Made by a program: the position numbers and the translations under genes. The notes under the pieces were generated by a model. The model searched no databases and was not told the DNA's origin. It saw only the letters and a program-made list of their open reading frames with translations. From Limnomonas spitsbergensis (lineage: Eukaryota; Chlorophyta; Chlorophyceae; Chlamydomonadales): a DNA stretch of 64,000 nucleotides. The stretch covers positions 434,001 to 498,000 of the forward strand of contig JAYJMM010000061.1 of assembly GCA_037349105.1 (NCBI GenBank), in the 5' to 3' direction. Positions 1-64,000 of this stretch are shown in pieces (positions within the stretch are counted from its first letter, which is position 1; every line of letters starts with the position of its first letter).

Positions 1-2
1 CG

Positions 3-3000
3 CAGCACTACCTGCCAAAGCCGCACCTCATAAATGGCTTCAAGTACGACATGCGCATATACACACTGGTGAGCCATTGAGCCATACCCGGTGGAGGGTT
101 GCCAGGGAGGAGGGGACTGGAGGGGTGGGGGGAAGGAGGGAAGGGAAGGAGGGGGGGAGGAGGGAAGGGAAGGAGGAGGGGAGGAGGGAAGGGAAGGAGG
201 GGGGAAGGAGGGTAGGGAAGGAGGGGGGGAGGAGGGAAGGGAAGGAGGGGGGGAGGAGGGAAGGGAAGGAGGGGGGGAGGAGGGAAGGGAGGGAGGGGGG
301 GAGGAGGGAAGGGAAGGAGGGGGGGAGGAGGGAAGGGAAGGAGGGGGGGAGGAGGGAAGGGAAGGAGGGGGGGAGGAGGGATGGGAAGGAGGGGGGGAGG
401 AGGGAAGGGAAGGAGGGGGGGAGGAGGGGGGGGAGCCATTGAGCCATACATGGGGGAGGGTTGCCCGGGAGGAGAAGACTGGAGGGGAGGGGGAAGGAGG
501 GAGGGGGAAGGAGGGAGGGGGAAGGAGCGGCTTTCCCGATTGACCCCTCTTTCAGGTCCTCTCTGTGAATGTGGCATTGACAGAAAGCAAAAATTATTTC
601 CCCCTGGAGACATTGCATCTCCCAATCCAGTCTTACTTACAGGGCACCGTGTGCTGACACTGTCCTGATTGGCCCCTCCTTCAGGTCCTCTCTGTGGACC
701 CTCTGAGGGTCTTTGTCTTCAGAGAGGGGCTGGCCCGAATCTGCACTGAGAAGTACGTCACACCCAAGGTGAGAGTGAGAGGCACACAGCCGCACGTGTT
801 TGCGTTGTTTATTTTCATTTACGGAGCTACAATTCAGCTACATCTTAGCACTTATTGTATGTTAGCTACATATCAGCTACAGTTCAGCTTCATCATCTAA
901 GCACTTTTGTATGTTAGTTCTGAGGCTGCAGTTCAGCTACATCACGTCCTCACACAAAAAGTGTCTGCTCCCCGATCTCTTATGCGAGCCCAATAATCTT
1001 GTACCTGAACGGTCTACGCGACCCTCTATATTTGACGTCCCATGATCTGGTCCTCAACTGGTCTGTGCACCCCACTCTGATGTAAGAGCCGCAACATCTT
1101 GTACCTAAACGCTCTAAGCGCCCATCTGTATTTAACTCCCATGATCAGATCTCCCACGAGTCTCTGGACCCCCCCCCCTGATGTTTGAATGCCACGTTGT
1201 CTGATTTAAAGCTGGTCTGTGGTGTCTGCTCACCTCTCCATGTTTGACCCCATGATCAAATCTTTTGGTGGTGTCCCCTTGCAGGCATCGAACCTTGACA
1301 TCCCGTACATGCACACCTTGAGTTTTTTTAAGCCACCAGTTTGGCTGTTATTTTGTTCCCTCACCTCGGGCATGAATCAAACCTTGAAATCTCGTACAGG
1401 CGCCTTAATTTGTATCAGTCATTGGTAACGCTGAACCATACATGTTGTTTTGTTCCCTCTCCCGCAGCAGCCTTGAACCTTGACATCTCTTTTACGGACC
1501 TCACATGTTTTGGCCAAGCCTCGGCTTTGGTAACGTGTGTTCTCTCTATCCTCTGTCACTCGACCCGAAACCCTTAACCCTCAGGCCTCCAACCTCGACA
1601 TCTCCTACATGCACCTGACCAACTACGCTGTCAACAAGCACAACGAGACCTTTGTGGCGAACAATGGCGGCTCTGCTGATGATGCGGAAGAGGCCAGCAA
1701 GCTCGGGCTGCAGCAGCTGGCAGACCACATGACTGGTGAAGGTATGAACGCAATATACACCAGCTTCAAATTACATACAGGCGGCCACCAGCTTCAAATT
1801 ACATACAGGCGGCCACCAGCTTCAAATTACATACAGGCGGCCGGCCTCCCACTTTGCTAAGTCCCAGCAAAAGGGAAAGTTCCCCTCTATTCATACATTC
1901 ACCGGGAGCACAACTTCATCATTGTGATATGATTGATCACCGTAATTGAAGAAAAGGGCGCATCTGCTGTTAACTTGGCGAGCAACGTTGGCCACGCAGT
2001 GCCATGGCTCTTGTGCCGGTATCGAATGATAGAAGCACTGCCGTTTGAGTGGCACCACCTTTTGCAAGGTACTGGGGACCCTCCTGGCTACGGCATTGTA
2101 ATGCTCACGCCTTCGTTCCTTCAGAGTGCTTCAGCTACAGTTCGGCTACATCATGGTCTATGGCAGGATGGGGCTAGTGAAAGAAGCCCTGCCTGCTTTG
2201 GTCCTAAGCTGGGCCTAAGCTGGTGCCCTGCCTAAGCTGGGCCTTAGCTGGGCCTAGGCTGGGGTACCTGCCTGCTTTGGCCCTAAGCTGGGGTTCGTGG
2301 GCACAGTGGTGGCTGCCCAGCAGCTCGCCAAAACAGTGGTCTGGTGCATAGTTCACCGGGCACTGCTGTTAATGTTGCCGCCTGTACCCCCAGGTCACAA
2401 CTGGGAGGAGGTGTGGGAGTCGATCCAGCAGGTCATTGTCAAGTCCCTCATCAGCGTACAGCCCTTGCTCAAGAATAATTATCGGAGGTGAGGGGGATGA
2501 TAGGAGGAACTGTGGGAGGGGTTGCGAACAATGGCTTTGGGTGAGATAAATCACCAGAGGTGAAGATGTTAGGAAGTGGGGACTGCAGGAGGGATGCGAA
2601 GCAATGGCCAGATGTGTGAACCGTTGTCGCCGTGACCTGCTCTGTCTCAAGTGCTCTGTCTGAACTGCTATGTTTGACGTGCTATCTGCATTGATTTGTC
2701 TGGCTTGCTATCTGAATTACTTTGTCTCAATTGCCATCTGTATTGCTTTGCCTGAATTGCTTTATCTCAATCGCTCCCTCTGAATTCCTCCTTCAGCGTG
2801 ATGCCAATCGACAACGATGGGTTCAGCTGCTTTGAGATTCTGGGGTGAGTGGGAGGGCGGGTGAGATGAGGTTGGGTGGAGTGGGTGGCAGCAGTGGGGG
2901 GGAGGGAGGGTGAGTGGAGAGGGGGGAGAATGAAGAGTGAGGGACTGAGGGGATGGTGAAGGGAGGGTGAGTGGAGTGCATGGAGATTGAAGGATGAGAG

Positions 3001-6000
3001 GAGGGTGAAGGGAGGGTGGGTGAATGGTAGGGTGAGTGGAGTGGTGGGGTGAGGGTGTGCAGATATGAGGGTAGGAGAAATGGAGGGCAGGGATGGGGGG
3101 AAGGGAGGGTGCGGGGAGGAGAGGAGAGGGGGTGTAAGGGAAGGGTGCTGGTGTGGGGTGTTCTGTGGAGGGGAGGGTGGAGATGTGAGGGAAGGTGAGT
3201 GGAGTGGTGTTGAGTGGAGGCGAGTTGAAGCTGGACACCTGGCACCCTGACACTGGCTGGGCAGGCGTGCAGACTGATAGGACATTACGTCGATACCACT
3301 CGGCAACCTGCTTTCGCGGGGGCCTCCATTGGGAACGGCTTGAAGGATATTGCACCTGCCAAATTGCACACCGGGGGGTACCCCCCTTGTGCACACCGGG
3401 GGGGGGGAGGGGGCGGTGCAAGCGTGCAATGAGGTTCCTGCACTTGATTTATTTCTTCTCACTGCAAGGCGCTTTCTGGATGTTATGCAGAGTGCAGTCT
3501 CAGGCTGCGCCCTGATACTGCACTCTGACCTGGGTGACGTGCAGGCTTGTACGGCAGCATACAGCTTGCCGCTCAGCAACCTGTTTATGTTGGTATGGTA
3601 ACGTTGCGCACCTAGTCCCTGCACCCTGATTCTACAACCTGAGTGGCATTTAGACTGGTACTACACCATACTGGTACTACACCATACTGGTACTACACCA
3701 TACTGGTATTACACCATACTGGTACTACACCACACTGGTACTACACCATACTGGTACTACACCATACTGGTACTACACCATACTGGTACTACATCATACT
3801 GGTGCTACACCATACTGGTACTACATCATACTGGTACTACACCATACTGGTACTACACCATACTGGTACTACACCACACTGGTGCTACACCATACTGGTA
3901 CTACACCACACTGGTGCTACACCATACTGGTACTACACCATACTGGTACTACACCACACTGGTACTACACCATACTGGTACTACACCATACTGGTACTAC
4001 ACCATACTGGTACTACACCACACTGGTACTACACCACGCTGGTACTACACCATACTGGTACTACACCATACTGGTACTACACCATACTGGTACTACACCA
4101 CACTGGTACTGCACCATACTGGTACTACACCATACTGGTTGCCACTCAGCAGCCTGTTTTTGTTCTCATGTGAACTCTGCAAACTGGCACTACACCGTGC
4201 ACACTGGCACTGGCTAGGTGCGCATGTGTGGACAGGTATGACATTACACAGGCCGCCGGTCAGCACCATTTTTTTGCTCTCATGTCAAAGCTGCACCCAG
4301 ACAGGGCATCCTGACACTGACTTGGTGCGCGTGTGGACAGGTATGACATTATGCTGGATGCCGAGCTGCGGCCATGGCTCCTGGAGGTCAACCACTCGCC
4401 CTCGTTCAACATAGACTCCCCGCTGGATCTGGCTATCAAGGAGGAGCTGATCCAGGTGTGTGGGGATTTGTGTGGGGGGGGCAGGTGTTTTATTCATGTG
4501 GCAGGGGAAGTCCATGCCGGGAGGACCTGGCCATCCAGGTGGAAGGACGTGGGGGGTAGGTGTTTTCTAGTCAGGCAGTAGTACCTGGCCATCCAGGTGG
4601 AAGGAGGGGGAGGTAGGTGTTTTCTAGTCAGGCAGTAGTACCTGGCCATCCAGGTGGAAGGAGGGGGAGGTAGGTGTTTTCTAGTCAGGCAGTAGTACCT
4701 GGCCATCCAGGTGGAAGGAGGGGGAGGTAGGTGTTTTCTAGTCAGGCAGGAGGACCTGGCCATCCAGGTGGAAGGAGGGGGAGGTAGGTGTTTTCTAGTC
4801 AGGCAGGAGGACCTGGCCATCCAGGTGGAAGGAGGGGGAGGTAGGTGTTTTCTAGTCAGGCAGGAGTACCTCGTTATCCAGGAGGAGCTGATTGTACCAA
4901 TGTACCCCATGTGCGGGGGTTAAGGGGCAGGTAGTTTATTGTTTGGTGGGATGATCAGAGGGTTTCAGGTGAAGGGTCGGAGGCTAGGGTTTGATGTCAG
5001 TATTAACTTGTTGTTGTTTGCGACCACCGTCACTGCGTCACATGTATATTCTTGAGGTCTCAAACCAGCAGGTCAGGGCAAGAGGGAGGGGTTCCCACGT
5101 ATTTTGTGCATGTTTATGTGTGTGCAAGTGCAGGATACTATCCAGCTCTCTTGTCCAGCCCTGTCACGACGTATTGTGTGTGTGTTAGTGTGTGTGCAAG
5201 TGCAGGATACTATCCAGCTCTCTTGTCTAGCCCTGCCACAACGTATTTTGTGTGTGTTAGTGTGTGTGTAAGCGCAGGATACCGCCCAGTTCTCTTGTCT
5301 AGCCCTGTCATGACATTCTACGTGTGTCAGGATATTATCCAGCTCTGTTGTTTACCCCTGTCGTGACGTATTGTGTGTGTGTTTGTGTGTGTGCATGCAG
5401 GATACTATCCAGCTCGCTCGCATCGATCCGGCGATCATCCGTAAGATCAAGAAGGCGGAGAAGCGTGCGGCTAATGGGCGGCTCATGGACCCCGTGCTCA
5501 AAAAGAAGAACGAGGAGCAGGACGCGGCGGCAGCAGCAGGGGGTGCGGTGCCGCCCTCAGCGGGTGAGTGGGAGGGTTGAGGGGGGCCTTTTGCGGCAGG
5601 GGAGGCCTGGAGGGCTGATTCTGAGGTGGTGTATCAATAGCTGCATCACCAGCAGGGTGTGTGTGCAGGATTCATGGACGGCTTTCCCTGATGATGATCC
5701 CAAGAGCTAATATGGCGCTTGAGGCTAGAATCAGTGCTGTGCCCTGACTTTGCTTGAAACCAGAAGGGGCTCTAAACCCTAGTGCTGTGCCCTCACCTCT
5801 AGAAGCTCATATAGGAATGATATCCCTCACTCAAGCCGTCGCTCCCGGAATGGACCTTCAACACATGAGTGTAACCTCTCGGCCCCTGAGTGCGGCCTCT
5901 TTCCCCATTAGAGTAACAACTCTCCCCTTCAGTGTTACCTCTCTCCCCTTCAGTGTAACCTCTCTCCCCGTTCGAGTAACCTCTCTCCCGGTAAGGATGA

Positions 6001-9000
6001 CCTATCCACCCATGAGTGTAACCTTTCAACTGTGTAGTGTAACGTCGCATCCCATAAGTGTAACATTTCAATCCGGGAGTGTAATATTGCAAACCATGTG
6101 TGTACCATTTCAACACATTGGTGTCACCTCTCAGCCCATAAGTGTCATGTTTTGACCCGAGAGTGCAAACTTTTAGCCCGGAGGGTGTCCACTCAACATG
6201 TGAACGTGACATTTCAACTCATTTGTGTCACAGTCACCGTTTGACTCGTGGGTGTGACCTCACAACCCATAAGTGTAATAATTCGACCCATTAGTGTTTC
6301 CTCTCCTTCCATGAGTGTAACCTTTTAGCTCATGAAGCACTGTAGCTCCACTCCAGTCATCCTCTGCTGGATATGTCCCGCCCACCTGTCAGCGCTGCTT
6401 CGTTCCCGCAGGTTTGGCTACTGGGCCACAGCCACTGGCCGCCCTAGGCCCGGCCCTTGGAGGCGCCTCGTGGGCCTCCAGTCTGCCTGCCTCCGCTGCA
6501 GCAGCCGGGGCGCCCAAGCAGAGCACCACCCGCATGCTGGAAGATATGGAGGCACACAAGTGAGAACAGATTTTGTGTTTGACTCAGCTACATGTCAGAA
6601 TCACTCCGGCCTCTGGCAGGAGGCCCCATTTGTGGTCAGCCATGCTGCTTTATCCACCAGTTGTAGGCCGATCCAGGTTTGGCCCAGTCGGGCCTTCAAA
6701 GGTGGGCCCGTACCCGGAAAATGAAGCACTGCGTGAGCGCAGCAGGCCAGGGGGGGGGGGTCTGGGGGATCGGACAGAGGGGCCAGGCTGGAGGATGGCC
6801 AGAGCTGCCAGTCCCCTGGTAAAGGAATCTAGTGGGGGATGTCTGAGGGTCCTCGTCATGTTCAGTTGCAGGTTGGCATTGGGCCATTCCCTGGTGCAAT
6901 GCCGCTGGTGTTTCTATCTGGGGTTGGATGGCACTGCACAGATCCGCCAAATGAGTGATTGGATCCAGATAAGAGGCACGGAGCTGCGGGAGTTACAAAA
7001 AACAGGATTTTGTAGTCACTGATGTAGAAAGATAATGTACATAAGGGAGGGAGGGGGGGAGGGAGAAGCTTGGGAGGGGGGAGCATTTGAGCGGGGGTGA
7101 AGGTGTGGAGGCTGAGTGGGGTGGGGACTGTTTGTAAAAATTAGGATGCTTACATATGTCCTTACGTATGGTTTGAGGAAGACACCCATTTTGGCCCAAG
7201 CATGGGACATGGGCTAAACAACATTTAATTCTTATTCGTTTTTAGGGTTATGTACAGAACCTTCAAGGTTCTGGTTAAGAGTGCTGGCTGGAGGTTGAGG
7301 GTCCTGGTTGATATAGCCGCCCACTTGGCCAAAGCATAGGACATGGCTACGATAAGGAATGTTTAATTGCTTGGTATTTTTAGGGTTCAGACCCTTCAGG
7401 GTGCTGGCTGAGGGGTTAAGGGTCTGGGTTGACACAGGATCCCTGTCCTGGCTGGAGGTTGAGGGTCCTGATGGATACAAGATCCCCGCACTGGGTTCAT
7501 GAAATGCAATGCACGTGGGTCACGGGAAGATACAAACAACACGGCTGTCACAGGGAGGCCACACCTGGATTGCAAGGTGCTGTACTGATGTACTGATTTA
7601 TTGCTGTACTGCTGTGCTGAGTACCATGCTTTATCGCTCCCCCGTAACTTGTGCCTGCAGAGCTGAGGTGGTGCGGCAGCGAGAGAGGTATGAGGCAAAA
7701 AACATGGGGGGCTTCACGCGGATCTTCCCATCGGACGATCCGACGCTGCAGGTGTGGAGGGGGAGAGGCGACGGGCAGGGTGCTCTAATCAGTGCTGTGC
7801 TGCTTACGGTGGCTGAGTTACTAGCCGAGTCTCAGTCACTGGAATTTCAAGGAAAATTCAGCTACTTTCACCCGCAAGGGACCGTAATTACTGGCATGAT
7901 TCTGAATTGCGGCGCAATTGCACAGCACTGGCTCTGATGCATGAAGCTGTTTGCTTCGCATTGCTCCATCAAGACCGGCGCTCAGATGCATCAGGCAATC
8001 TGATGACCCGCAACATACGTACCCCCCCCTGTTATCTGTGGCAGGCCCATTACGAGGAGCTGCTGCGCGGATCTGTTGAGATCTATAGCAGTGCCTTTGC
8101 CAGCAAAGCCAAGAAGGCCATTGAGAGCATCAGTGAAGAGCGGCGGAAGAAGGTGAGGCCCTAAACCCTGCTAATTTTAGTGCAACTCAGCTACAACTGC
8201 CGGGTACAATTCAGGTACAACTCAGTGAAGAGCGACAGAATAAGGTGAGGCCCCAATTGAAGTCAGGAATCCTAAATCCTATTTAGTTTAGCACAATTCA
8301 GCTACAACTGTCAGGTACAATCCAGCTGTAACTGCCAGGTACAATCCAGCTGTAACTGCCAGGTACAATTCAGCTACAACTGTCAGGTACAATCCAGCTG
8401 TAAGTGCCAGATACAATCCAGCTGTAACTGCCAGGTACAATCCAGCTGTAAGTGCCAGGTACAATCCAGCTGTAAGTGCCAGGTACAATCCAGCTGTAAG
8501 TGCCAGGTACAATCCAGCTGTAACTGCCAGGTACAATCCAGCTGTAACTGCCAGGTACAATCCAGCTGTAAGTGTCAGGTACAATCCAGCTGTAACTGCC
8601 AGGTACAATCCAGCTGTAACTGCCAGGTACAATCCAGCTGTAACTGCCAGGTAAAATCCAGCTGTAAGTGCCAGATACAATCCAGCTGTAACTGCCAGGT
8701 AAAATCCAGCTGTAACTGCCAGGTACAATCCAGCTGTAACTGCCAGGTACAATCCAGCTGTAACTGCCCGGTACAATCCAGCTGTAACTGCCAGGTACAA
8801 TCCAGCTGTAACTGCCAGGTACAATCCAGCTGTAAGTGCCAGGTAAAATCCAGCTGTAAGTGCCAGGTACAATCCAGCTGTAACTGCCAGGTACAATCCA
8901 GCTGTAACTGCCAGGTACAATCCAGCTGTAACTGCCAGGTAAAATCCAGCTGTAAGTGCCAGGTACAATCCAGCTGTAACTGCCAGGTACAATCCAGCTG

Positions 9001-11425: not shown

Positions 11426-12081
11426 TACGAGCGCGCGGTGTCGCCCGCCAGCCGGCTTGCACCACCCGGCTCGCTCCAGTGCCCGATGTCGCCTGCGGCA
11501 CACCTGCCCTGCCCGCATTCCGCCGCCTTTTCCTGGTCCTCCATGACGGTGACGGCATGCGTACCGGGCGTGCAGCAGCACACTGGGGCCAAGTCGACAC
11601 TAGTGTTTGGGGCACCAACGAATCCGCCGCAGTTGGTCTCGCCAAGGCATAGCTCCACGGCCGTTTATGGCAACGCGCTAGCAGCAGCGGCGGCCGCCTC
11701 GTCGGCCCCAGCTGGCTCGTCTGGGCGGAGGGCTGTGAGGAGGCCCGTGCCTGGCTCGAAGTCTTTCTTGGTCCTTGACATTGGCCCTTTTGAGCGGGAC
11801 CACGAGGTGCAATGTGATTGACCTATGTCTGTGCCTGCAACACTGGACCTGGTTGTCGAACTAGCCGAATACAGGGTTTGGGGTTTAAACCAAAATCTAG
11901 ATTATGTTAACCCTAAAACCTCAACCTGACGCACTGCACATACGTGACGTGTGCACTGGAGCTGGTTGTCCAATTAGCCAACCAAGCACAAGGCTTGCGG
12001 CACAGCATGGAAGACCTAGAGATTGAGAGTGCTAGCTGAGAGCGCGATACCGTATAATGTTCATCATAACGCTTCACAGTG
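11426..12081. other. Intergenic, including a fragment of a dispersed element
   Basis: No convincing gene. GC-rich open frames to about 11821 include a stretch (about 11780-11825) resembling the end of the dispersed element at 12140-12390 (cctttttgagcaggg and gtgtaatgtcattgacc), so the ORF ending at 11821 is probably not protein coding. 11870-12060 is AT-richer with nothing recognised. Confidence 0.5.
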
Positions 12082-19730: not shown

Positions 19731-19975
19731 GCATACCCACTAGGCCCTGCTTGGCCACGTGGGGCTGGTGGGGAATGATTAAGCTCAAGTTCAGCTACAT
19801 GCACAGCCTGGGATGGTGCAGCCATTCCATCCTCCCATGTGAGGGGGCAGGACATGAAACCCGACGCTCTAGTTGGGGGGAGAGAGAAGATCGTGTCGTG
19901 GGCACGATCCCTCAACCCCTAGGTATGGATGCCACCAGCGTTATACCACTGGACCATATCCCCCCTGTTTTCTGG
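19731..19975 (-). mobile_element. tRNA-derived SINE family 1, uninterrupted copy
   Basis: Read on the minus strand it starts gggggatatggtccagtgg (box A at 19946-19956), continues through a degenerate box B (about 19901-19910), and ends in the shared tail with accagccccacgtggcc. This copy lacks the insertion found at 12122-12392 and therefore defines the empty site. Confidence 0.7.
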
Positions 19976-20957: not shown

Positions 20958-23900
20958 TCAAGGCTCGAAAGTGGGTGCCTGCCGCTTCCCCGAGCCGCCT
21001 GCCTCGTACAGCAACCTCTTGCCCAGGTCCGCATATGGGTCTGACAAGCGCTTGCGTAGCAGGTAGCCCAGCCCCTCCTCCACCTCATCACGAATATGGG
21101 CGTACAGCTGCAGCATTCACAGGGGGCCAACGAGGTGCGTGTGAGCACACAGCTGGAAACATAAATGAGGGTTCAAGGTTGCTATGGTACAGAATGCCAA
21201 TCAGGGGTTAAGGTTGCGGAGGTATAAAATATAAATAAGGTTGCTGTGGGGTGGGTAAGTGGAGGATCAAATATAAAAGATGGACACCAGCATCCGCCTG
21301 CTTGAAAGACAAGCATGAGGGTCGTGTGTCAGCTAGCACTACCATCAATAGACAAGCCATGCAGCAAGCACGCCTGCCACAAAGTCATGCAGCAAGCAGG
21401 CCAGAAACTACAGCCAGTGCAACACAACCGCCTGCTCCACCAGGATGTGTGTGGTTGCAGGCATGTCCATGTGACCTGAGCGCCCTGATCAGCATCAGGT
21501 GCCCCTGCTGCCAAATGGCTACACCGGCTTGCTCACCTCGTCGCACTCGTCGCGGGACGCTGCCATCTCCGGCCTCGTTTCCACCGGACGACGAAACACA
21601 AAGTAGAAGCGCGCCGGTACCTTGGGTGCCAAGAGGCCAGGCAGGAAATCCGCCATCCCTTCCGATATGTCTTCCGCAGGGTCAAGCATCTTGACACCAC
21701 GGCGCGCCTGGGCGGGCAGGAAAAACAGGGTGCCAGACAGTACGAATGGGTGACAGGCAGTACATAAGGGTAATGAGTCCTGGCAAGAACTCACCCACAC
21801 CACCTGCAATGTCCGCAACAGGGTCAAGCATCTTGACACCACGGCGCGCCTGAATGGGCAAAACAACAGACTGAAAGACTGACAGGCTGAACGTATGAAT
21901 TACAGGCCATACAATAGGGAGATGAGTCCCGGCAAGTACTCCTCCATCCGGTCTGCAGGGTCCGCTGCAGAGTCCAGCATCATGACCCCGAAGCACGGAC
22001 ACTGACAGGCAGTACCAGAGGGTGACAGGCAGGACCATTGGGTTCATTACAATAAGTTTTTTCACGAGGTCTGCAGTGTCCTCCGCGGGGTCTAGCATCT
22101 TGACGGAACGTCATGCCTGGGCAAGGTAGGGTACAGGCAGTACAGCAGGATTGCAGACACAATCTGTACAGGAAGTACAGTGAATATTGCTTCATTGTTT
22201 TCCGTTTTAATCACATATGACTAGATTACTACATCATTACTACGTCAAGGGATTCACAGATTCAGGGTTTGAGGTTCAGGGCTCCTCCGCTCAGGGAGAA
22301 AAGGGCTCAGCGATGTGGGGTTCCAATGGTTTATGGTTTATATGTTCGCCAATACAGCTTGTCTTGCTTTTGAACCCCTTCCGCCCTCCTTGTCAGCCCA
22401 TGTATCTGGTCCTAGCACTGAACGCGTGCATGTCTGAGTGCATGAATGATTTGCAGCATCTTCTGGTGCCCAGTCCATATTTCAGTGCGTGCAAGACCAC
22501 CTTCGGCAGGCTGCTGGGAAACCACCACTTGGTCAACCGGCGCCACGCCTGGACTGGCCATAGGCCACGTGCCCAAAGCAGCGGCTGCACCAGCACCTGG
22601 CCGTAGACCACCGTTCGACTACAGCAGAATCACCGCAAAAATAAAATTTGCTGGATTTAGCCACTCCTTATCCTGTTAACCCTCCCTCCAAGGGAACATC
22701 CCCTTCCCCCCTTCAACCCAATCAACCCAATTCCGCTTGTATAGGCAAAGGCAGTTGCACAGCCAGGATCGCCCACCTTGGGTCTTGTGGCGGCATCTGC
22801 CTCCAGCCTCCTCCTCAGCATTGGGCCCACCACAGGGGCAGACATGAGGTCCTGGGCATCAGCGAGGATGTCCAAACTATCTTCGGCGCCAATCGCCGCA
22901 AAGGGAATGATGGTGGCACCGAAACGGGCCGCCATCCTCACAAACTCCTGCCTGCGGGGGTCATGAATTTAGGATCCAGAGCTCAAATGGACGCCCTAAA
23001 TCCTTCAAGTAACACTATCCTCACTAACTCCAGTGGGGTTCAGGATTGATGGTTTTGGCTGCCCGGTATTGGGTTTAAATTAAGACCTGGCCCCAAATCC
23101 TGCACACGGCTAACCTTGAACCCATTTAACATGCCGCCGTCCTCAAGAACTCCTGCCTGCCAGGTTCAGGGCTCAGAGTGGATTGATTTAATGCAAGTGC
23201 ACAATCGACCCCGAACGTGCACACGGTGAATCTGAGCCAGCGTGCTACAATCCTCTCAACATCCTGCCTGTGAGCTCAGGCGGAAAGGATTTATAGCAAA
23301 CAGCCTGGCATAATCAAAAGGGTACAAACAGAGGTTCAGACTTTTGAGACTGTTGTCCAGAGTGCTTGATGTGGAGAGGTTGAACTCAAAGATTATATTC
23401 ACAGTGTGGGAGGCAGGTATCCATGAATGCGGGTTCATGGATTCTCTCATTGGTCCAGCGGGTCATCTGTGTCAAGGCACACTTCACTGGCATACAACCA
23501 ACAGGAGGCGCCATGGTTCATCCCCGCCATTTCGCTGAGGGCTCTCACACCTGCCTAGCTCTTACATCCCCAGCAATCCCAGGACACCTTGGGATCTCCT
23601 GCAAGGTCCCTTACAAATTCAGATTCCCTTCGAATCTCCCACATCCTTTGGGCTCCGAAGCTCCGAAACCTGAGATGCTGATGCATCTGCCAGGCTTTGT
23701 CAGCACTAAAATGGTAGCTCCGAAGCATCGTGGCCCCAGGCCCCTTCCCTAGCCCTAAACCCTAAACCCTGGACCTGCCTCTCTGGCCACATGATCTTGT
23801 ACTTCTCGCCCTTGCGCTTGCTCACACCCTCACGCGCGCCACCAGGGTACAACAGGGCCGCCTCACCCTGAGCCAACAGCCTGTGGGGAGAGAGCAGTGG

Positions 23901-26900
23901 AGGGAGCGTGTTCAGCAGTGGGGAGGGCGCAGTGGGGGGGGGGGGGGGGGAGTGGGGGGGAGGGCGCAGTGGGGGCGTAGAGAAGCTGGCTCCTTCCCTT
24001 CCAACGTCCTCTCTCTTGGCAGGGAGAGGGCATTGGAAGGGAAGGAGCAGGGTCAGTGGGGAGGAGGGAGCTTTGGGGGGTCAGTGCCCAGGGTCAGTGG
24101 TGGGGAGGGAGCAGGGTCAGTGAGGAGGGAGCAGTGGGGGGTCAGTGATGGGCAGGGAGCAGTGGGGGGTAGTAGAGTGGGAGAAAGCAGGGCCAGCGGT
24201 TCGAGAGGTGGAGCATGGGCTATTGATAAGTTACAAAACGGCAATGTGTGCATCTAGAAAGGACATCACTGGTTCGCATGCACAACTTTAACACAGCCCT
24301 CACTTGTACAGGTTTGCACCGCTGACTGGTACCCCTCCGAATGTCTTGAGGAAGGCTCCTGAGGCCATGTCGCCTGCCTGCTCCGGGGAGGTGCCCATAC
24401 CCTGCGATGGCCGAGGTATAGGGATTTGCATCAGCAGAGGTTTACATAGGTGCTGGTGGTGGGATCGTAGCATAGCTTAAGTGTTTAAGTACTGGCAGCA
24501 GGATCCCAACATAGCACAAGTACAGGAATTGAACATAAAGAGGGATTTTATAAAAACTGGTATCGGGATGCAACAAAGCACATGGCAGGGCTCAAATAAG
24601 TATAGAGATCACATAAGTGCTGGTAGCTTGGATCTGAACAACGCACCAGTGCAGGGATTTAACAAGCAGAAGTGTTCTCAGTGGTAAGGCATCAGAGGCC
24701 ATGAAAGTGTGTCACATCGCTTTGTGTTGCGCTGTATTGGCCCGTGTGAGGTAATCGTGGTGGGCCTGACACCAGCCTGTTCATCCACTCTGTTGCGCTT
24801 CAGTTGTTCCTCTATTGGGATCAGCAGCAGAGGCAGGAGGGCAAGCCCCACAGCCTTCCATGCCTCTTGACTGGCTGGAAGAGTAGGAGGTAGCCTGGGA
24901 TCATGTCCCAGAAGCAAAGGCTACCTCCTGAAATCCACCACAGCCTGGTTCAATCACATGCCTCTCCACCCTGCCCTGAACTCACGCCCATTGCGAATGG
25001 GTGCGCCAGCCCCCTCAGCAGCATCTGCCGCTCCTCCAAGAACTCGGAAATCATCAACGGCATGTCCGGGGCTAACATCTGCGGCAAGGGCGCATTCGAC
25101 AGGTGTCAAAACCTGGGTGACACAATCCAGCTTAGCCTGTATTGTATCGGGGTACCTTGGGACAACAATCCAGCTTAGCCTGTATTGTATCGGGGTACCT
25201 TGGGACAACAATCCAGCTTAGCCTGTATTGTATCGGGGTACCTTGGGACAACAATCCAGCTTAGCCTGTATTGTATCGGGGTACCTTGGGACAACAATCC
25301 AGCTTAGCCTGTATTGTATCGGGGTACCTTGGGACAACAATCCAGCTTAGCCTGTATTGTATCGGGGTACCTTGGGACAACAATCCAGCTTAGCCTGTAT
25401 TGTATCGGGGTACCTTGGGACAACAATCCAGCTTAGCCTGTATTGTATCGGGGTACCTTGGGACAACAATCCAGCTTAAGTTGTGCCGTATCTTGCACAT
25501 GACGTATTCTGCTACCATGGTACAAACAAGCTGAAAGACTGCGTAGGGCCCCCTAGCGGGCGTGGACACATTCTTGTGACTCAAGCTGGAGTGGACACAT
25601 TCTTGTGACTCAAGCTGGAGTGGACACATTCTTGTGACTCAAGCTGGAGTGGAAACATTCTTGTGACTCAAGCTGGAGTGGACACATTCTTGTGACTCAA
25701 GCTGGAGTGGACACATTCTTGTGACTCAAGCTGGAGTGGACACATTCTTGTGACTCAAGCTGGAGTGGACACATTCTTGTGACTCAAGCTGGAGTGGACA
25801 CATTCTTGTGACTCAAGCTGGAGTGGACACATTCTTGTGACTCAAGCTGGAGTGGACACATTCTTGTGACTCAAGCTGGAGTGGACACATTCTTGTGACT
25901 CAAGCTGGAGTGGACACATTCTTGTGACTCAAGCTGGAGTGGACACATTCTTGTGACTCAAGCTGGAGTGGACACATTCTTGTGACTCAAGCTGGAGTGG
26001 ACACATTCTTGTGACTCAAGCTGGAGTGGACACATTCTTGTGACTCAAGCTGGAGTGGACACATTCTTGTGACACAAGCTGGAGTGGACACATTCTTGTG
26101 ACTCAAGCTGGAGTGGACACATTCTTGTGACTCAAGCTGGAGTGGACATATTCTTGAGACTCAAGCTGGAGTGGACACATTCTTGTGACTCAAGCAGCCT
26201 GTACTTGGCGCTTGTAGATTCCCCTGGACTGCATGTACTGCCCCCAACTGTTCTGCTGTACCTGCTGGTTACCCACAAATAGCATGTAGTTGGTGCTGGT
26301 GCATTCCACGCTCCCCTGTACTGCATGTATAGCTCCCCACTGTACTTCTGTACCTGATAGTTGCCCACGAGCAGCACTTAGTTAGCACTCGTTCATTCTG
26401 TATTTCAAGCCCCACTGAACTGCATGTACTGCTCCCTGCTGTACTGCTGTACCTGATGGTTGCCCACAAACAGCAGTGGTCGGCACTCCGGTATGCCCTC
26501 CAGTCCTTGGTGCACAGAACCTGTCTCGGCATCAGTGGAGAAGAACACTGGGCTCACCTGCAGGCAAGACAAGCAGGGTTTTGGGGTTAAGGGTTCAGAA
26601 AAACTAAAAATTCTTAGCCCTTAACCCACTGTGCTCACCTGCAGGCAAGACAAGCAGGCAGGCAGGCGGTGCAAATAGGCAATCCAGTGTCTCCTTTCTA
26701 GCACTTGATGAGACAGCCTGTGAGACGGGGCAGTGTCAAGAGCCATGCACTGTTCGTGACCCCACATACCTTTTCTACCCAGACACAGATAGTCCTTTTT
26801 CCTCCTCCTCCAGGACTCCAGTTCTCCACCCACCTCAGCACTGATAGCCCCTTTGACCACCACTATGTTTCCCCCCACCCTCCTGCTCCATCTATCCCCC

Positions 26901-29900
26901 CAGCCCCCCCCCCCCACACACGTCATCTTCCCCCCCCCTTCTGCTCCAACTACCATTTCCACCCCCCCCCCCACTTCATCTCCCCCCCCCCCCCCTCCTC
27001 CTCCCCATTCTACAGCACTACAAATGAGTTTCCTCCTCCTGATACCCTTCACCCCAACTTTTCCTTTAACTCCCCTACCTCCACTGCCCCCCTACCCCAC
27101 TCCCTACCTCCTCCTCCTCCCCCCATACTTGTCACCCCTATACTTCCACCACCTCCCCTTGCTCCTCTGTCCCACTGCTGTACCCTCACTGCCCCCCCCC
27201 CCCCCCTCACACTCCCCTACCTCCTTCTTCCCCACCTCCATTTCCTCCTCCCCCCATAGTCTTCACCCCTCTCTTACCTACACCTCCCCATCCTTCGCTT
27301 CCCCCCTGCTGTACCCACACTGTCCCCCAACCCCCCTCCCCTACCTCCTCCCCCCACCTCCATTTTCTCCTCACCAAGCGGCGAAGTGATGATAGCCCCG
27401 TGGAGTTCATGACATCCTCCACCTCTTGCGCGGTGGGCATTTCAATCGGCGCCGGCGTCCCGAATGCAGCACCCCCCTGGGCCACACCGCTGGCCAGCTG
27501 CGAGCAGTACAAGAGATGGCCAGTGCACTCAATTGGGCAGTACAACAAAGCATGGAGTTTTCTTTGGGGCAGGCCGTGTGACTAATTCAAAAGGACTTCA
27601 TGTTCAGGCCACCAGTATACGGAAAAGGACAACCACGACAGACAAATAGCTCCAAAGTTTCAGGGATTCCTTTCAGTGCTGTATTATCCTGAATATTTTA
27701 GAGTGTCTCTGCTACACTTAAGCTACATCACAGTCTGCAGCTGTGGGGCATGGTGCAGTAAGACCTGCTGCTCAAGCCACCGGCTGTGAGACACTTACCA
27801 GTAAGCTTTGATCATTTCCCCCCTTTTCCTAACTGGGCTGGCCAGCAGCCTGTGCAAGGTGGTCAGACGCGCACTCATCTAAACACAGTCCTGATGTGTT
27901 TTAAGCCAATATGGCGGCTGGGCTTGCAAGGGGTTCACTTGCACGCCAACAAAGGCCCGGCAAGGACGAGTCCCATCCAGCCCTCGCACCCTGCTGGAAG
28001 AGGCCCGTGCTGGTTGCTGCCTCCCTGATTCCCCAACAGCAGCAGCTGAAGGCGCCTCGCTGACGCCCTTTGCCGTGCCATTTGCCGCCCCTGACGACGA
28101 CGTAGCAGATGCAGCCGATGCCCCACTGTTCTCCTTATGCCCCCTGCCGTTGATGTCATCATTCTTTCCATTATCGGCCTCATGTAGGAGAGAGGATCTG
28201 TTAGATCCAGTTGCCGGATCCGACCTTGCGCGGCTAGATCCGGTGGGTGACGTGCCGTCCATGGCAATCCAGCCGGGTTTTGGGCCTAGCTGGCCGCTGG
28301 TGAGTTTGCGAGTGGGCACATAGAAGCCCTCGGCCTCGATGATCTTGGTTAGATTGATGCCAACTTCCTGAGGCAGAGGGAGGGCAAGGGCAGAGATTCA
28401 AACATCCTCTAATTTTAAATTCAAAATCGATGATCTTGGCTAGGTTGATGCCAACTTCCTGAGGCAGAGGGAGGACAGGGGCGGAAGTTCAAACATCCTC
28501 TAATTTTAAATTCAAATTCTAAATCCTGTTAAATTGCGTCAGCCACTAAGTTTTGACTCTGCTCAGACTTTCTGTCCAAACCAAAAGGAAATTGTGAGTT
28601 ACATAGATCCAAGATTTAAGATCCATGATCTGTGGTTACGAGATCCATGTTCTCACTAGAAGATCTCCTCACAGTCACTTTGTATGATATACGTATATAA
28701 GGAGAGTCCCAAAACGAATTGCAGGCATGCAAGCACCATCAGAGAGTGAGCCACCCTCCCTTTTAATTGACCAGATGTCCCACCACGGCTTATCCCTTAT
28801 CTGCAGCGTCGCCTGCAAGCGCAGAGGCATCAAGAAGTGCAGGCCCCCCTTAAACAGGCATTGTCAGAGTAAATCGCCCTCCCCCTGATCTAGCAATTGC
28901 CACCCCCCCCTCAAAATCCATCCCCTCATCCAATACCTGCAGCATTGCATGTGAGCGCAGATGCATCACTTTAAGACGACACCTAGGCAGCGCCTTCTGG
29001 AGTCGCGGCCCCTCGCTGCTGCTGGGGATGACCAGATCCAAACTCCCAGTCAGAAGCAGGATCTTCTGCGGGACCTGTGTCAGGGGGGAGGAAAAGGAAG
29101 GGAGGGAATATCATTTTGACAGGCAAGGAAGAAGAAAGCATGAACCAAGAAGCTGGTCTGGTGCGCACTAAAATCCCTGGTCCAGGCTGCAAGTCAGCGG
29201 CAGAATCTTATGCAACACATGGTGAAGGGGTGAAGGACAACTTGTCAGTGGTACTGAACAGCACACAAAACGGTGCCGAGTCGCAAAGGGGCTATTTTAA
29301 CCTGGCGCTGCGACTCAATGACGGGAAGTCCCGAGGTGGAGATCCGCCAAAAATGAAGGGGAAGATGCATTTGGAAAGGCAAAAGAGGAGAGGCGGCACG
29401 AACCAAGAGGGCTAGGGCCTGATATGCAGATATGGGGATGAGGTAGATGCAATAACAGACGTGAAGGCTCCCTTAGCAATTGTAGAGGGCTGCTAGCGTC
29501 CAGCATCATCCCGTGATTTTTTATTTTTTATTTTACTTTTAACCCAAATAGGTATGTTCAGCCCGGTAATTGCGAGTATTCCACTGCAGATGCTTGAAAG
29601 GGCAAGTGGCCCACTGCAGATACTTAAAAGATATGCAATTTCAAAAAAAGGCCCCACAGCAATTCCCACAGCTGCATGCTGCTCACCTTGCCGAGGATGG
29701 CGTTGACGTACTTGGAGCCTTGGTACAACAGCTGCATCCTCCAAGCCAAGGTTGCAGGAGGCAGCACCAGCCTGGGGAGAGAAGGGAGAGGGGGACAGGC
29801 GGTGTATCAAATTCAAATCCTCACAAGGGGGGAGGGGGCAGAAACAAGATTGTGATACCCAATCCCAGGAACGAATGGCGCTTGAGGAGATTTTCCAATA

Positions 29901-55193: not shown

Positions 55194-58100
55194 CTACCCC
55201 GTGGCTGCCACTTTGGGGCCTGCCTTGAACAGGTGGACATACACATTCCGGCTGATCTCTGTGCGCAACTTCGAAGCTGCCGTGCCGTGGGCCAGGCCGG
55301 AGGGGCCCACTGGCAGGCCCGCCAGCAGTGCCTCTGCAGCCTTGTTGGGGTCCTCACCCCGCTCCCGCGCCCGGGCTTTTACGGTCTTGTACGCGTCCCC
55401 GAGCGCATGCCAAGTCGGGTAGCTGTCAAGGGGGAATAGGCGAGGTGTGGAGGGGTCAGAAGGTCAGCATGGATGCAGCATGGAAAAGTGTGGGAGTTGA
55501 GTATTTAGGAGCGCTCCGAGAATCGGGACAGGCTGCATATGAAACACATCATCGTCCCAGCGCAGGATGCCACTCTGAAAATGAAGTGTGGACATCCCAA
55601 ATTGGAGGCCATGCCGTTCGGTTTACACTCAGAGGAGCAAGCTTGAGTGGCAGCTTGAGTGACATGTATATTAAATAAAGTGTGCTGTAAAGAAAACCAG
55701 CACCGACATACAATGCATTTCAGTCAGAGAGTGGCCCCTCACCTGGCCAGGATGGCCTCCACGTTTGTCTCGCCGGCACCTGATCAGGAGTCAGAGAATG
55801 GAGGCAGCTTGATCGGCAAACAGGAGGTGGCATGCTGGGATAAGGACTGCTCGGCCAACCTCCAGCTTGAGATGCATGCACACAGTAGTGTGCATGGCGA
55901 GTACACCACGTGTGTGCATGGTGCATGATTATGAGTTTATGCCTCGTGTAATGACATAGACAAATTCCCAGTGGTCTAGTTCGACGGAACTTCCCCCACC
56001 CCTTTGTATGATGGAAGCGCGTAGTCTATACAGAAATCATGGATCATGTATTCATGCGCATGATGCATTATGCGCACATGGGGTGTCTAAGGCACACTAT
56101 GGGCAGTACACTTGGGCTGCATGGGGCATGCAGTGCACATGGGCAGTACACATCGGCTGCATAGGGCAGGCAGTGCACATGGGCTGCATGGGGAAGGCAG
56201 TGCACATAGGCGGTACACATGGGCTGCATGGGGCAGGCAGTGCAAATGGGCGGTACACTTAGGCTGCATGGGGCATGCAGTGCACATGGGCAGTGCACAT
56301 GGGCTGCATGGGGCAGGCAGTGCACATGGGCAGTACACATGGGCTGCATGGGGCAGGCAGTACACATGGGCAGTGCACATGGGCTGCATGGGGCAGGCAG
56401 TGCACATGGGCAGTACACATGGGCTGCATGGGGCAGGCAGTACACATGGGCAGTGCACATGGGCTGCATGGGGAAGGCAGTGCACATGGGCGGTGCACAT
56501 GGGCTGCATGGGGCAGGCAGTGCACGTGGGCAGTACACATGGGCTGCATGGGGCAGGCAGTGCACATGGGCAGTACACATGGGCTGCATGGGGCAGGCAG
56601 TGCACATGGGCAGTACACATGGGCTGCATGGGGCAGGCAGTGCACATGGGCAGTACACATGGGCTGCAGGGGGCAGGCAGTACACATGGGCAGTGTATGT
56701 CTCACCTGGTACAGCGCACAGCATGAGGCCAAACACGTCCCTGACAGTGAGGGACGAGCGTAGCTTCTTGATGTCATCCGACCACTGCGCCAGTGTGGGA
56801 AGCGAAGACGGGGTGTCGCAAGAAGCTGGGCTGCCTGCAAGTAGGGAGGTTAGGCGGGCGGGGCTCAGGTAGGATCAGTCAGGGGAGACAGGCTGAGCGT
56901 CACATTGCGCTTCAAAAAGTGCCGCATTCCGATTGCATGGCTCCTGGCTAATCATTGCCTCATTCTGTCTCACCTAGTACCTGCCCACTCAAACGCAGTA
57001 TTGCATAGTTCGCATACAAAACACACTCATGCACTGCCATGCCCCCACCTTCACTACCATGCTCCCACCTGTACTGCCATGCCCCCACCTTCACTACCAT
57101 GCTCCCACCTGTACTGCCATGCCCCCACCTTCACTACCATGCTCCCACCTGTACTGCCATGCCCCCACCTTCACTACCATGCTCCCACCTGTACTGCCAT
57201 GCCCCCACCTTCACTACCATGCTCCCACCTGTACTGCCATGCCCCCACCTTCACTACCATGCTCCCACCTGTACTGCCATGCCCCCACCTTCACTACCAT
57301 GCTCCCACCTGTACTGCCATGCCCCCACCTTCACTACCATGCTCCCACCTGTACTGCCATGCCCCCACCTTCACTACCATGCTCCCACCTGTACTGCCAT
57401 GCCCCCACCTTCACTACCATGCTCCCACCTGTACTGTCATGCCCCCACCTTCACTACCATGCTCCCACCTGTACTGCCATGCCCCCACCTTCACTACCAT
57501 GCTCCCACCTGTACTGCCATGCCCCCACCTTCACTACCATGCTCCCACCTGTACTGCCATGCCCCCACCTTCACTACCATGCTCCCACCTGTACTGCCAT
57601 GCCCCCACCTTCACTACCATGCTCCCACCTGTACTGCCATGGTATGCCCTTTCAACAGCCTTGGTGAGGTTAGCCAGCAGCATGAGCGTCACGTTGGGCC
57701 CCGAGGAGTACAGCATGTGGAAGCCACTGAGAGCCGTCTGTAGTGAGGCCGTCTTAACAGCTTTCCGCTCGATCTCTGTGAAATGTGACAGTTAGGGGTG
57801 TGAAAGTGTGACCGCCAAGGGCGGTGTGCAGTATGGTGGTCTTGACGGCCCTCCTCTTGATCCCTGTGAAATGTGATAAGGAGGGGTGAGGTAGTGTGAC
57901 AGCAGAGATTGAGAACAGTCTGAAGGGCGGCGGTCTGGACGACCTTTCTCTCAATCTCTGTATATGATATCAGTGAGGGGTGGAATTGTGTGACAACAAA
58001 ACTTGAGGAAGAGACAGAGAGTGCCAGTATGGCCTGTGTGCCAGTGTGTGTGTCGGGGGGGGGGGATGCGTCGACTCGGGAGACGCGATGGCATGTAGCA

Positions 58101-61100
58101 TGGGAGCACGTGCGGCATGCGATGCCCCATGCACTCGAGCAGGCCTTGGGCCCCCCTTCCGTAATTCCTGCTGCGTCCCTACCCATCGACTGATGGAATG
58201 ATATACTTTGTTCCTGCTGCCTGTCATTAGCTGATTCTATTGCAAGCCATTTGCCTCATTGGCTGTTGGACCAAATATCTCACCAATCTTACTTCTGTTC
58301 ATACCAGTTAAATCAGGAATAAAACGCACAGCACCAGCCTGACCCTCAATCCTCTTACCCATGCTGCTGCTGTCCATGTATAGTATAAGGATCAGGGTTA
58401 AGGTAACGGGTTTTAAGCCTGTTCTGTACAGCCTGGCCCTCAACACGCCCACCAGTGATGCTGTTGTCCATATCAGGGTCTCCCTCCAGGAGATAAAAGG
58501 TGCGGGACAAGCCGCACAGACGCATGATGTACTTCTGCTGGCTGTACCTGAAAGTGCAACGCCAGTGTAAACAGTGTGAGATGATGTGTAAGGTGATCAT
58601 ATTCTGGACTGCAGGGGCAGGGTAGAGCGGTAGCCATATTTCTCCAGATGCAAGCCTTGTAATCAGTGCTATGCAATTGCGCCGTAATACTAAATTTGTG
58701 CTAGTATTACGGCCCCTCACTGGTAAATGTAGCTGAATTTGTCTTGAAATTGCGGCGACTGAAACTCAGCTACGTAATTCGCCACTGTAAGGACCGTAAT
58801 TAGCACAGCACTGCTTGTTATGCAACTCCTGCTACTGACCGGCCCATGAGGCGCTGTCTCCTGAACCTTCACATTCCCGTAGAGCTAAGCTTTCCGTCTC
58901 TCTGTTTGTTGCCATGAGTTGTGATGTGTTACGAGGAAAGCTTCAGGAACTTGTTTGGGCGGCCAACCCTAGGCAGGTGAGGACCAAACCTTGGCCAGGG
59001 GACCAAGCAGCAGGGGACCTTGCAGAGCCAAGCCCAACGGACATGGGACCAAATATACCTGGACAACTGAACCCTGGCCACAAACAAACTAAAACCTAGC
59101 CATGAAACAACTGAAAACAAACTGCCCATCAAACAACTGAACCCTAGCCCTCCCGCTCCCCTTACCGGTGGTCCTTGATGCTGCTGGCCAAATCTGACAC
59201 CGACTTTCGCTCCACAATGTAATCCAGCATGTACATGAGCGAGGGCCGGGTGCGGCACCTGAGAAAGCGACGGTGGATGAAGGCGAGGCAGGGGGGGTGA
59301 TCGAAAGAAAGCTACGCCCCGTGGGGGGCGATGCAGGGCGGGGGGTGATGGATGGAAACCAACAATGAATGGCGGCGAGGCAGGAAAGATTGATGGAAAG
59401 AAAGAGAGCTACGCCCCGTGAGGGGCGTGAGAGTTAAGCAAACAGCGCAGCTTGGGCCGAAGCCACATCCGCACCGTTACCGTGACTAGGGTGAAGGCGA
59501 GGCAGGGGGGGATGATCGGGGATGTACTGGAAGGGAAACCGTGTGGCCGAGCAGCGCCAGCAGGAGGATAAGAGAGAACAATAGCATGGCCATTGTCAGG
59601 TCAGAGCCCGGGAGCACCCTGGCATCATATATCTGCCCTATGCCTGTCGTTTATCACTCACCACTGCCCTGGCTCATACTGCCCCATGCCCACCCAAATT
59701 ATCCCGGGTTTATAAACCCCTTGCCTCGACCCATTGATCCCACTACCCGTCCCACCAATGTCCCACTCATCGTTTCAGGGTTTTTTAACCCCTAAAACCT
59801 TGCTCCTAATGCCTCATACCCCCTTCCCACCACCTTGCCACCTGCAGCGTATCCCCCACCAGCAGCGTCAGGTCCGCCACCACCGCTACTCTAATAGGGT
59901 TTATACAAACATTACCCTTCCCCCTTCCCCCACCCACCTCGCCACCAACAGCGTATCCCCCACCGTCAGCACCAGGTCCGCCACCATCACTACTCTCTCA
60001 GGGTTAATAAATATATTGCCCTTCCCCCTTCCCCCACCCACCTCGCCACCCATAGCGCATTTCCCACCGTCAGCATCAAGTCCGGCACTGCCACTACTCT
60101 CCAGGTTTTATAAAGACCATTCACCTAAACCGTCCCCCACCCACCTCGCCACCCATAGCGCATCTCCCACCGGCAGCGTCAGGTCCGCCACCACGGCCAC
60201 GCCCTTGCTGCGTATGCGCTGGGCATGTTCCGCCAGGGTCTCGGTGCGTCCCTTGCCGTGGGTGCGCTCAATCTGCTCACGCTGGTCAAGCACCAGCACT
60301 ACCTGATAGGGCATGGGGGCAAAGGGGGGGACTTGGAGGGATCATGGGTGGGTTATGGGCGGGCCTTGGATGGGTAATGGGTGGGCAAAGAGTGGGTCTT
60401 GGATGGGCAAAGGGTGGGTCATGTGCGGGTCCTGGGTGGATTAAGGGTGGGTCATGGGTGGGTCGTAGATAGGCAAAGGGTGGGTCATGAGTGGGTCATG
60501 ACTCATGAGTAGGTCTTGGATGCGGTGAGAGTGAATAATGTGCGGGTTGTGCATGGGTATTGGGTGGGCCATGTAGGGCATGTGTGGGTGTTGGGTGGGT
60601 CATGGGTGGGCCACATGTGGGTCATGTATAGGCCTTGGATGGGCAAAGGGTGCACATTGGGTGGGTCGAGAATTCATGTATGAGTCATTTGCGGGTTATA
60701 GGCGGGTCATGTGTGGGTCATGGCCTCATGTGTGGGCCATATTCAATGATGCAGGAGGGGAGGTGCGGGGATGAGGAGGAAACATTGTCGGTGTGGGGTT
60801 TCAGATGCGGTCCTGAGCTGCGAGCTGGATCCAATCGTTTTTGAGGCAGCAGCCTCTTTGGAGGCAATATGTGATGTCCAGCATGCCCAGATTGCCTCCC
60901 CACCAACATTGACCGCCCAGGGAGACCTCACCCCCCCCTCCCCCATTGCCCCCCCAGGGAGACCTCACCCACCCACCCACCCACCCACTTCGTACACATC
61001 CTCAAAGCGCTCTCCTGGCTGTAGCGGGGGTAGCTGCATCGCCTTGGACCGCGTTCCCTGGTCCCCCAGCCTCTCCAGCAGCCATTGGTAGGTTGTGGAC

Positions 61101-62273: not shown

Positions 62274-62284
62274 CTGATGCGCAG

Positions 62285-62765: not shown

Positions 62766-63024
62766 GCACGAGTCAAACAACCTCAGCATAGCGAAGGGTT
62801 CAGGGTTTAGGCTTAACGGTCTAGGCCTGTATCCAGCAGCAAAACACTTCAATTGTGAAACAGTTGCCGGCCGAAGGGAGGCACGCAGGGCAGCCGTCAG
62901 TATAGCATTGATCAGAGAGGTCCAGTGCAACAGTCTAAGGGTGTGATTAATCCAATGCTCCTCCCAGATCCGGGCCGCATGAGAGAGATCAGCAGGCTTG
63001 CGCCACGCCCAGCCCAGCTGCTTG

Positions 63025-64000
63025 CTTACCTTTCGACAGCATCCTTGTACAAGCGGGCTGCTTGCTTACCTTTCGACAGCATCCTTGTATAAGCGGGCTG
63101 CTTGCTAACCTTTCAACAGCATCCTTGTAAAGGCGGGCTGCCAGACTGCTTGCTTACCTTTCGACAGCATCCTTGTACAAGCAGGCTGTTTGCTAACCTT
63201 TCGACAGCATCCTTGTACAAGCAGGCTGCTTGCTAACCTTTCGACAGCATCCTTGTACAAGCGGGCTGCTTGCTAACCTTTCGACAGCATCCTTGTACAA
63301 GCGGGCTGCTTGCTTACCTTTCGACAGCATCCTTGTACAAGCAGACTGCTTGCTAACCTTTCGACAGCATCCTTGTAAAGGCGGGCTGCCAGACTGCTTG
63401 CTTACCTTTCGACAGCATCCTTGTACAAGCAGGCTGTTTGCTTACCTTTCGACAGCATCCTTGTACAAGCAGACTGCTTGCTAACCTTTCGACAGCATCC
63501 TTGTACAAGCAGGCTGTTTGCTAACCTTTCGACAGCATCCTTGTAAAGGAGGGCTGCCAGACTGCTTGCTAACCTTTCGACAGCATCCTTGTACAAGCAG
63601 GCTGTTTGCTAACCTTTCGACAGCATCCTTGTACAAGCAGGCTGCTTGCTAACCTTTCGACAGCATCCTTGTACAAGCGGGCTGCTTGCTAAACTTTCGA
63701 CAGCATCCTTGTACAAGCAGGCTGTTTGCTAACCTTTCGACAGCATCCTTGTAAAGGCGGGCAGCCAGACTGCTTGCTTACCTTTCGACAGCATCCTTGT
63801 ACAAGCAGACTGCTTGCTTACCTTTCGACAGCATCCTTGTACAAGCAGGCTGCTTGCTAACCTTTCGACAGCATCCTTGTAAAGGCGGGCTGCCAGACTG
63901 CTTGCTTACCTTTCGACAGCATCCTTGTACAAGCAGACTGCTTGCTAACCTTTCGACAGCATCCTTGTACAAGCAGACTGCTTGCTAAACTTTCGACAGC
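63025..64000 (-). repeat. About 24-copy, 40-52 bp array carrying a 5' splice site
   Basis: Plus view: gcttgcttacctttcgacag then catccttgtacaagc, with longer units containing gtaaaggcgggctgccagac. On the minus strand each unit reads LYKDAVER ending GAAAG followed by gtaagc (strong donor), gttagc (weak) or tttagc (destroyed). It continues past the window edge, where the true exon (possibly an N-terminal MUS81 exon) must lie. Confidence 0.9.

Follow-up and report, generated by a model that had tools for sequence, protein, structure and literature searches.

Tandem repeats that run across splice junctions are a real feature of the genome of the green alga Limnomonas spitsbergensis, and they occur in unrelated genes both within the 64,000-b stretch of DNA analysed here (the window, C61:434001-498000) and elsewhere in the genome. 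In a sample of 150 introns, the placement of repeat arrays at junctions is indistinguishable from blind placement, and the splice sites look like bystanders of a process that acts throughout the introns. We consider it reasonably probable (roughly 60%) that these repeats reflect junction-blind duplication, which would do little harm if splice sites are recognised as pairs across the exon; the duplication mechanism (slippage or unequal exchange) and the exon-definition step are both parts of this reading that we infer.

Junction-spanning repeats inside and outside the window

The assembly used comprises 260,226,709 b in 124 contigs, the longest of which (C41) has 10,736,355 b, and the published description gives 260.248 Mb, 124 contigs, 54.15% GC and a longest contig of 10.736 Mb (PMC11228838). 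The same paper reports a mean intron length of 788 b for the merged gene set, as well as RNA-seq data and full-length transcripts. Gene models for the window were built by spliced protein-to-DNA alignment to homologues, using a purpose-written aligner. The TTLL gene, on the plus strand, occupies the left end of the window and runs on past its edge (reference P0095; 62% identity, 64% of the query covered). The PES gene, on the minus strand, has homology support from approximately 33.7 to 20.96 kb and a possible start near 36.0 kb (reference P0001 from Chlamydomonas eustigma; 59% identity, 40% of the query covered). We take its product to combine an alpha/beta-hydrolase with an acyltransferase, as in phytyl ester synthases. 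For the core exons of both PES and TTLL, tblastn and the spliced aligner were in agreement. MUS81, also on the minus strand, is supported from approximately 60.3 to 55.2 kb, with an uncertain N-terminal part of the model; the homology search returned six matches, three of them named MUS81, and four references were used (P0169, P0172, P0174 and P0171). Five MUS81 introns were entered by hand, with introns 59165-58548 and 56705-55780 supported by all four references and introns 60144-59259 and 55742-55423 by three of the four.

An earlier note on this DNA had described junction repeats in four genes, at about nineteen junctions. This holds for TTLL, PES and MUS81, while the fourth, a putative "CS-domain" gene, found no support: Pfam searches of the three minus frames of 41001-46500 gave nothing above the cut-off, and a PDB search gave only phenylalanyl-tRNA synthetase at E 0.53. 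Pfam searches of 11500-20500 in six frames returned nothing at E 0.1, and those of 46000-55200 in the minus frames returned sub-cut-off matches only. The junctions tested were those with a homology-supported exon side, and a boundary copy was counted when an alignment with a score of at least 32, extending at least 10 b to each side of the junction, was found in the adjacent intron; these thresholds (alignment score 32 or 36, 10 b per side) were fixed once the first results had been seen. On this basis the adjacent intron repeats the boundary at 16 of the 64 window junctions (TTLL 4, PES 9, MUS81 3), and at 12 of these 16 the splice dinucleotide (AG or GT) is preserved in a copy. The count of nineteen was not reproduced; a stricter first pass found boundary copies at 11 of 52 window junctions. 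The description of units of 40-145 b, ranging from near-identical to diverged, was broadly right, with copy identities of 0.68-0.97 across the 16 repeated junctions. An extreme of 24 copies, also put forward, presumably refers to the array at 63014-64000, which adjoins no exon that could be modelled.

These copies exceed the chance level by a wide margin, as 26 of 245 junctions were repeated in their own adjacent intron vs 8 of 2450 when compared with introns of other genes. Similarly, when exon-edge segments alone were considered, 16 of 190 were repeated at a score of at least 34 vs 0.02 expected. In the 12 stronger window cases the distance from the junction to the nearest copy is 81-205 b.

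Within TTLL (plus strand), the acceptor of the exon starting at 685 is copied at 538..567, inside intron 69-684, with AG kept. The acceptor of the exon starting at 4341 is copied 105 b away at 4214..4269, in intron 2845-4340, together with 35 b of exon and an intact AG (TRF period 114, 2.1 copies), and a 72-b x 3 array at 5097..5314 contains three copies of the acceptor of the exon starting at 5401, each with 18 b of exon and AG. The donor of the intron starting at 8153 has a copy at 8222..8256 that retains 23 b of exon and GT.

In PES (minus strand), a 91-b x 2 array at 28336..28516 lies over the acceptor of the exon starting at 28367, duplicating 32 b of exon with AG kept, while a 99-b x 2.7 array at 26220..26475 lies over the donor of the intron starting at 26452, with 31-36 b of exon and GT in each copy; the latter is outside the 13 spanning arrays found with TRF (see below). 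Further acceptor copies with AG kept are found at 26627..26658 (exon start 26557, 12 b of exon), at 23128..23168 (exon start 22947, 25 b of exon, 205 b off) and, in two copies at 21809-21868 and 22077-22130, within 21809..22130 (exon start 21707, 40-41 b of exon). The four weaker cases, in which neither AG nor GT is preserved, are all in this gene: similarity to donors 32870 and 28936 at 32393..32429 and 28789..28832, respectively, with GT lost, and to acceptors 31432 and 29074 at 31698..31737 and 29176..29237, respectively, with AG lost.

In MUS81 (minus strand), a 104-b x 3.7 array at 59819..60194 lies over the donor of the intron starting at 60144, and each copy has 47-49 b of exon and an intact GT. 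Two acceptor copies within 57827..57977 (exon start 57775), which include 37 b of exon and an intact AG, belong to an acceptor, 57776, taken from one of the four references (P0171), and a weak donor copy with GT kept at 58339..58377 (intron start 58452) belongs to a donor taken from two of the four.

Outside the window we sampled HSP70 genes, TTLL paralogues (19 introns with both sides supported, at 14 loci) and 30 kb around a duplicate of the window TTLL gene. Copies of their own boundary were found at 15 of 208 junctions, from 11 loci outside the window, bringing the list based on one-sided support to 31 of 272 junctions, 16 of 64 of them in the window. Spanning repeats extend beyond the window to these 11 loci, which represent few gene families. 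Two of the 15 (acceptor 5195 and donor 5243 at locus L025) flank a single 48-b exon that is wholly repeated and could have been called in error. When both sides of the intron were required to be supported, spanning copies were present at 11 of 192 junctions outside vs 15 of 53 inside the window, and for introns of at least 400 b at 8 of 47 vs 15 of 43. A richer window is expected, since it was picked for its repeats. In the 30 kb around the TTLL duplicate there was no match to PES or MUS81 that would extend synteny with the window beyond TTLL. No account of tandem repeats overrunning splice junctions in algae was found in titles and abstract openings, in a search that left subscription journals mostly outside its reach, and the genome paper's sections on repeats and architecture contain no description of repeats at splice junctions (PMC11228838).

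Decoy splice sites and turnover in duplicate genes

Since many of the copies carry an intact splice dinucleotide, it may be informative to ask how these decoys fare. GT is present in 42 of 45 donor copies vs 32.3 predicted from the square of the copy identity, with 18 of the 45 in one array (that of the 48-b exon at L025), and AG is present in 16 of 19 acceptor copies vs 13.3. Averaged per array (29 arrays), conservation of the splice dinucleotides is 0.859, compared with 0.824 for the remaining bases up to 12 b away; the dinucleotide is better conserved than its neighbours in 19 arrays and less well in 8. Decoy dinucleotides are therefore not purged and may lean slightly towards retention, which would be unlike the prediction of pure neutral decay. 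Together with the finding that one decoy scores at least as high as the real site at 25 of 57 decoy-bearing junctions (a count that includes the weaker TTLL paralogue junctions), these observations could suggest that decoys are used in alternative or stepwise (recursive) splicing and that the arrays have a splicing role. However, when compared offset by offset within 12 b, the dinucleotide is not an outlier (donor 0.73, range 0.52-0.77; acceptor 0.80, range 0.52-0.90), and array periods do not favour multiples of three (44, 43 and 29 arrays).

The comparison of duplicate genes also argues against such use. In pairs of HSP70 and TTLL genes, exons are 79-92% identical and introns are mostly unalignable. 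Among 92 matched junction pairs from five duplicate-gene pairs (score of at least 36, only introns at matching positions taken), a spanning repeat was present in one copy in 9 cases and in both copies in none, and in 6 of the 9 the repeat-bearing member has the longer intron. Being private to one duplicate, these repeats must be either younger than the gene pairs or rapidly lost, and spanning repeats thus turn over fast in the sampled genes. Taken together, we regard a splicing role for the decoys as unlikely.

Under junction-blind duplication, decoys would be leftovers. Their mean site score is 4.2 bits vs 7.2 bits for real sites, as expected of unselected copies. The 57 decoy-bearing junctions come from 421 listed, some of which were passed over as too short to test, and the occurrence of equally strong decoys at 25 of them indicates that strength alone does not choose the site. 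Position could determine the choice: the modelled site is the one closest to the other end of the exon, in donor and acceptor arrays alike. The earlier note had likewise taken the true exon to be, without exception, the copy closest to the exon body; in our models this is a consequence of reading frame and homology and not independent evidence. The modelled choice resembles that in a published database of alternative sites, with accompanying tests, in which the site closest across the exon was preferred in large introns (PMC9225289), although here the preference is one drawn from gene models.

Placement of repeat arrays relative to splice junctions

The introns available for analysis came from TTLL, PES and MUS81 in the window, from nine HSP70 genes and from the TTLL relatives, that is, from few genes and few families. 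An ungapped lag scan, which gave 4 spanning arrays vs 3.0 expected (29 arrays), missed the clear array at the MUS81 donor, so TRF was used instead. After filtering out periods below 12 b and excluding 25 arrays located wholly in exon flanks, 116 TRF arrays were obtained at 150 introns, 115 of them with periods of 12-150 b. Of these arrays 13 cross a junction, vs 12.1 expected if arrays are placed blindly (simulated P(>=13) = 0.43), and the agreement is similar in the window (5 vs 4.5 expected) and outside it (8 vs 7.5 expected). Across ten further settings, 3-14 crossing arrays were observed vs 4.2-12.1 expected, three settings falling above expectation and seven below, and stricter TRF settings gave 3 vs 5.6 expected. 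With 13 crossing events this test rules out only departures of approximately twofold, and one of the 13 (at a MUS81 donor, intron 62345-62131) falls where the model has little support and the sequence is of low complexity. By intron length, 3 crossing arrays were found vs 5.0 expected below 500 b and 10 vs 7.1 expected at 500 b or more; the deficit predicted for short introns shows only as a trend.

A profile of repeated segments likewise has no peak at the junction. The fraction of 40-b segments repeated within the same intron (131 introns) is approximately 0.3 at 160-200 b inside the intron, 0.11 for the first 40 intron bases and 0.07 for the last 40 exon bases, falling to 0.01 where segments begin 60-80 b into the exon and to 0 where they begin 100-120 b into it; large offsets in this profile are weighted towards long introns. 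The comparison that the earlier note had set, of repeat frequency at junctions with that in intron interiors, came out against its expectation in this sample, as real junctions were repeated at rates of 0.10, 0.21 and 0.32 vs 0.28, 0.35 and 0.44 for pseudo-junctions of equal target length inside the same introns (targets of 150, 300 and 500 b, respectively). The lower rate at real junctions may reflect mild selection against junction-crossing copies.

These results bear directly on the idea that duplication is targeted to junctions, with the AG/GT region acting as a hotspot and as the main route of intron lengthening. In its favour, junction-spanning copies recur across unrelated genes, and among arrays with periods of at least 31 b there are 12 crossing arrays vs 8.4 expected (1 vs 3.7 expected below 31 b). 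On the other hand, neither the overall count of crossing arrays nor the higher repeat rate of interior points fits a hotspot, and the contribution of crossing arrays to intron length is small. TRF arrays make up 27.8% of sampled intron bases at lenient settings, and their share rises with intron length (Spearman 0.57), but crossing arrays account for only 15% of array bases and 4.1% of intron bases. A special role of the junction, or its being the main site of intron lengthening, is therefore not supported in this sample, and we consider targeted duplication to be distinctly improbable.

Relation to known systems and a proposed explanation

Exon-derived sequence inside introns could also be left over from the creation of introns through tandem duplication of AGGT-containing exon segments, the Rogers model (PMC3443670). 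As in that model, coding sequence and splice signals are here tandemly duplicated within a gene. The duplicate gene also lacks intron 2845-4340 of TTLL, in which there is a spanning repeat. However, in contrast to the model, old introns are enlarged and none is created. In-register identity between donor and acceptor regions is 0.279 within the same intron vs 0.281 for mismatched introns, with only 1 of 149 above the 99th percentile; this equality indicates that AGGT duplication leaves no visible trace here. Moreover, the nine private repeats all lie in introns common to both duplicates (only shared introns were compared), making this origin very unlikely. A search for introner-type copies with the first 809 b of intron 2845-4340 returned the query itself and 97 matches at 66-77% identity (40 of 109 candidates scored), which we presume to reflect the G-rich composition of the query. 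Finally, collapse or expansion of repeats during assembly, conceivable for a PacBio CLR assembly with Illumina polishing (PMC11228838), is highly improbable, as copies in the window differ by 3-32%, most arrays have few copies and are well within read length, and the same pattern occurs in many genes.

The nearest published case that we found is the potato RdRp gene, where duplication of a segment carrying the branch site, polypyrimidine tract and 3' splice site copied the intron-exon structure and gave rise to a new intron and an inserted exon (PMC4974935). The copying of intron-exon structure is common to both systems, whereas in L. spitsbergensis the extra exon edge ends up as part of the existing intron, and this across several genes. 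The arrays themselves resemble minisatellites, being made of two to many head-to-tail copies of units tens of bases long, with variable divergence. Unlike minisatellites confined to introns, they enter the edges of coding exons by way of splice sites, at approximately the rate expected of blind placement in the one assembly analysed.

For junction-blind duplication we propose the following course of events. Local tandem duplication of units of mostly 12-150 b would keep remodelling introns, probably through minisatellite-like slippage or unequal exchange. As this process would be blind to exon-intron boundaries, an occasional unit would take in 10-50 b of exon edge together with the splice site. 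The protein would stay intact as long as splicing stays with the site nearest the exon body, and exon definition across a short exon would be expected to favour the innermost pair of acceptor and donor. Copied exon edges left outside this pair would then become part of the intron and decay.

What had been suspected to be an intron-building trick is thereby recast as a measurable background process, that of duplications blind to splice sites. In genomes of this kind exon edges can be misplaced by gene finders and repeat maskers, and caution is warranted in their annotation. The natural decoy arrays also provide ready-made competition tests of how the spliceosome chooses among near-identical sites. 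More tentatively, it is possible that copying of splice sites into the adjacent intron is nearly cost-free genome-wide, with intact decoys accruing at the mutation rate and the site being chosen across the exon, with little influence from decoys located tens of bases off. If so, exon edges would leak steadily into introns in this alga, and very many intact decoys would lie beside its real splice sites.

Repeats at predicted or possible exon boundaries

At one locus fetched from elsewhere in the genome (L025, C105:52001-62000), a predicted 48-b exon at 5195-5243 in coding-strand coordinates is repeated in its entirety, with both splice sites included, in 18 copies spaced 80 b apart in which the GT is kept. 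Either the exon was called wrongly, or this is an extreme array of decoys (copied splice sites). At the right end of the window, a tandem array of approximately 24 units of 40 b (63014-64000) resembles by eye, when read on the minus strand, the end of an exon followed by a donor, and may belong to an upstream exon of the minus-strand MUS81 gene lying beyond the window.

Open frames on the minus strand

Judged by eye, the long open frame at 38648-40045 resembles a LINE-type reverse transcriptase protein, specifically the C-terminal portion of such a protein. The low-complexity frame of 869 codons at 45693-48299 gave zero Pfam matches above the curated cut-off for the two overlapping stretches searched.

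A TTLL intron and the history of duplicate genes

The 1496-b plus-strand TTLL intron at 2845-4340, which contains a satellite of 30 16-b units (3654-4139), is missing from the TTLL duplicate on contig C103, where the exon is uninterrupted. In several further TTLL paralogues, Pfam matches span the site of this intron within one exon, as judged from profile positions. The intron may be a recent gain; no source for its sequence was found.

Exon identity is 79-92% in the gene pairs L033/L034, L035/L036, L037/L038 and L040/L041, and between the window TTLL gene and L019+L020. Contigs C123 and C4 have two HSP70 pairs in common. C119 and C36 share one such pair, and a GTPase pair as well, the latter judged from match positions alone. 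The gene pairs look like the product of an old duplication, either of the whole genome or of a large segment.
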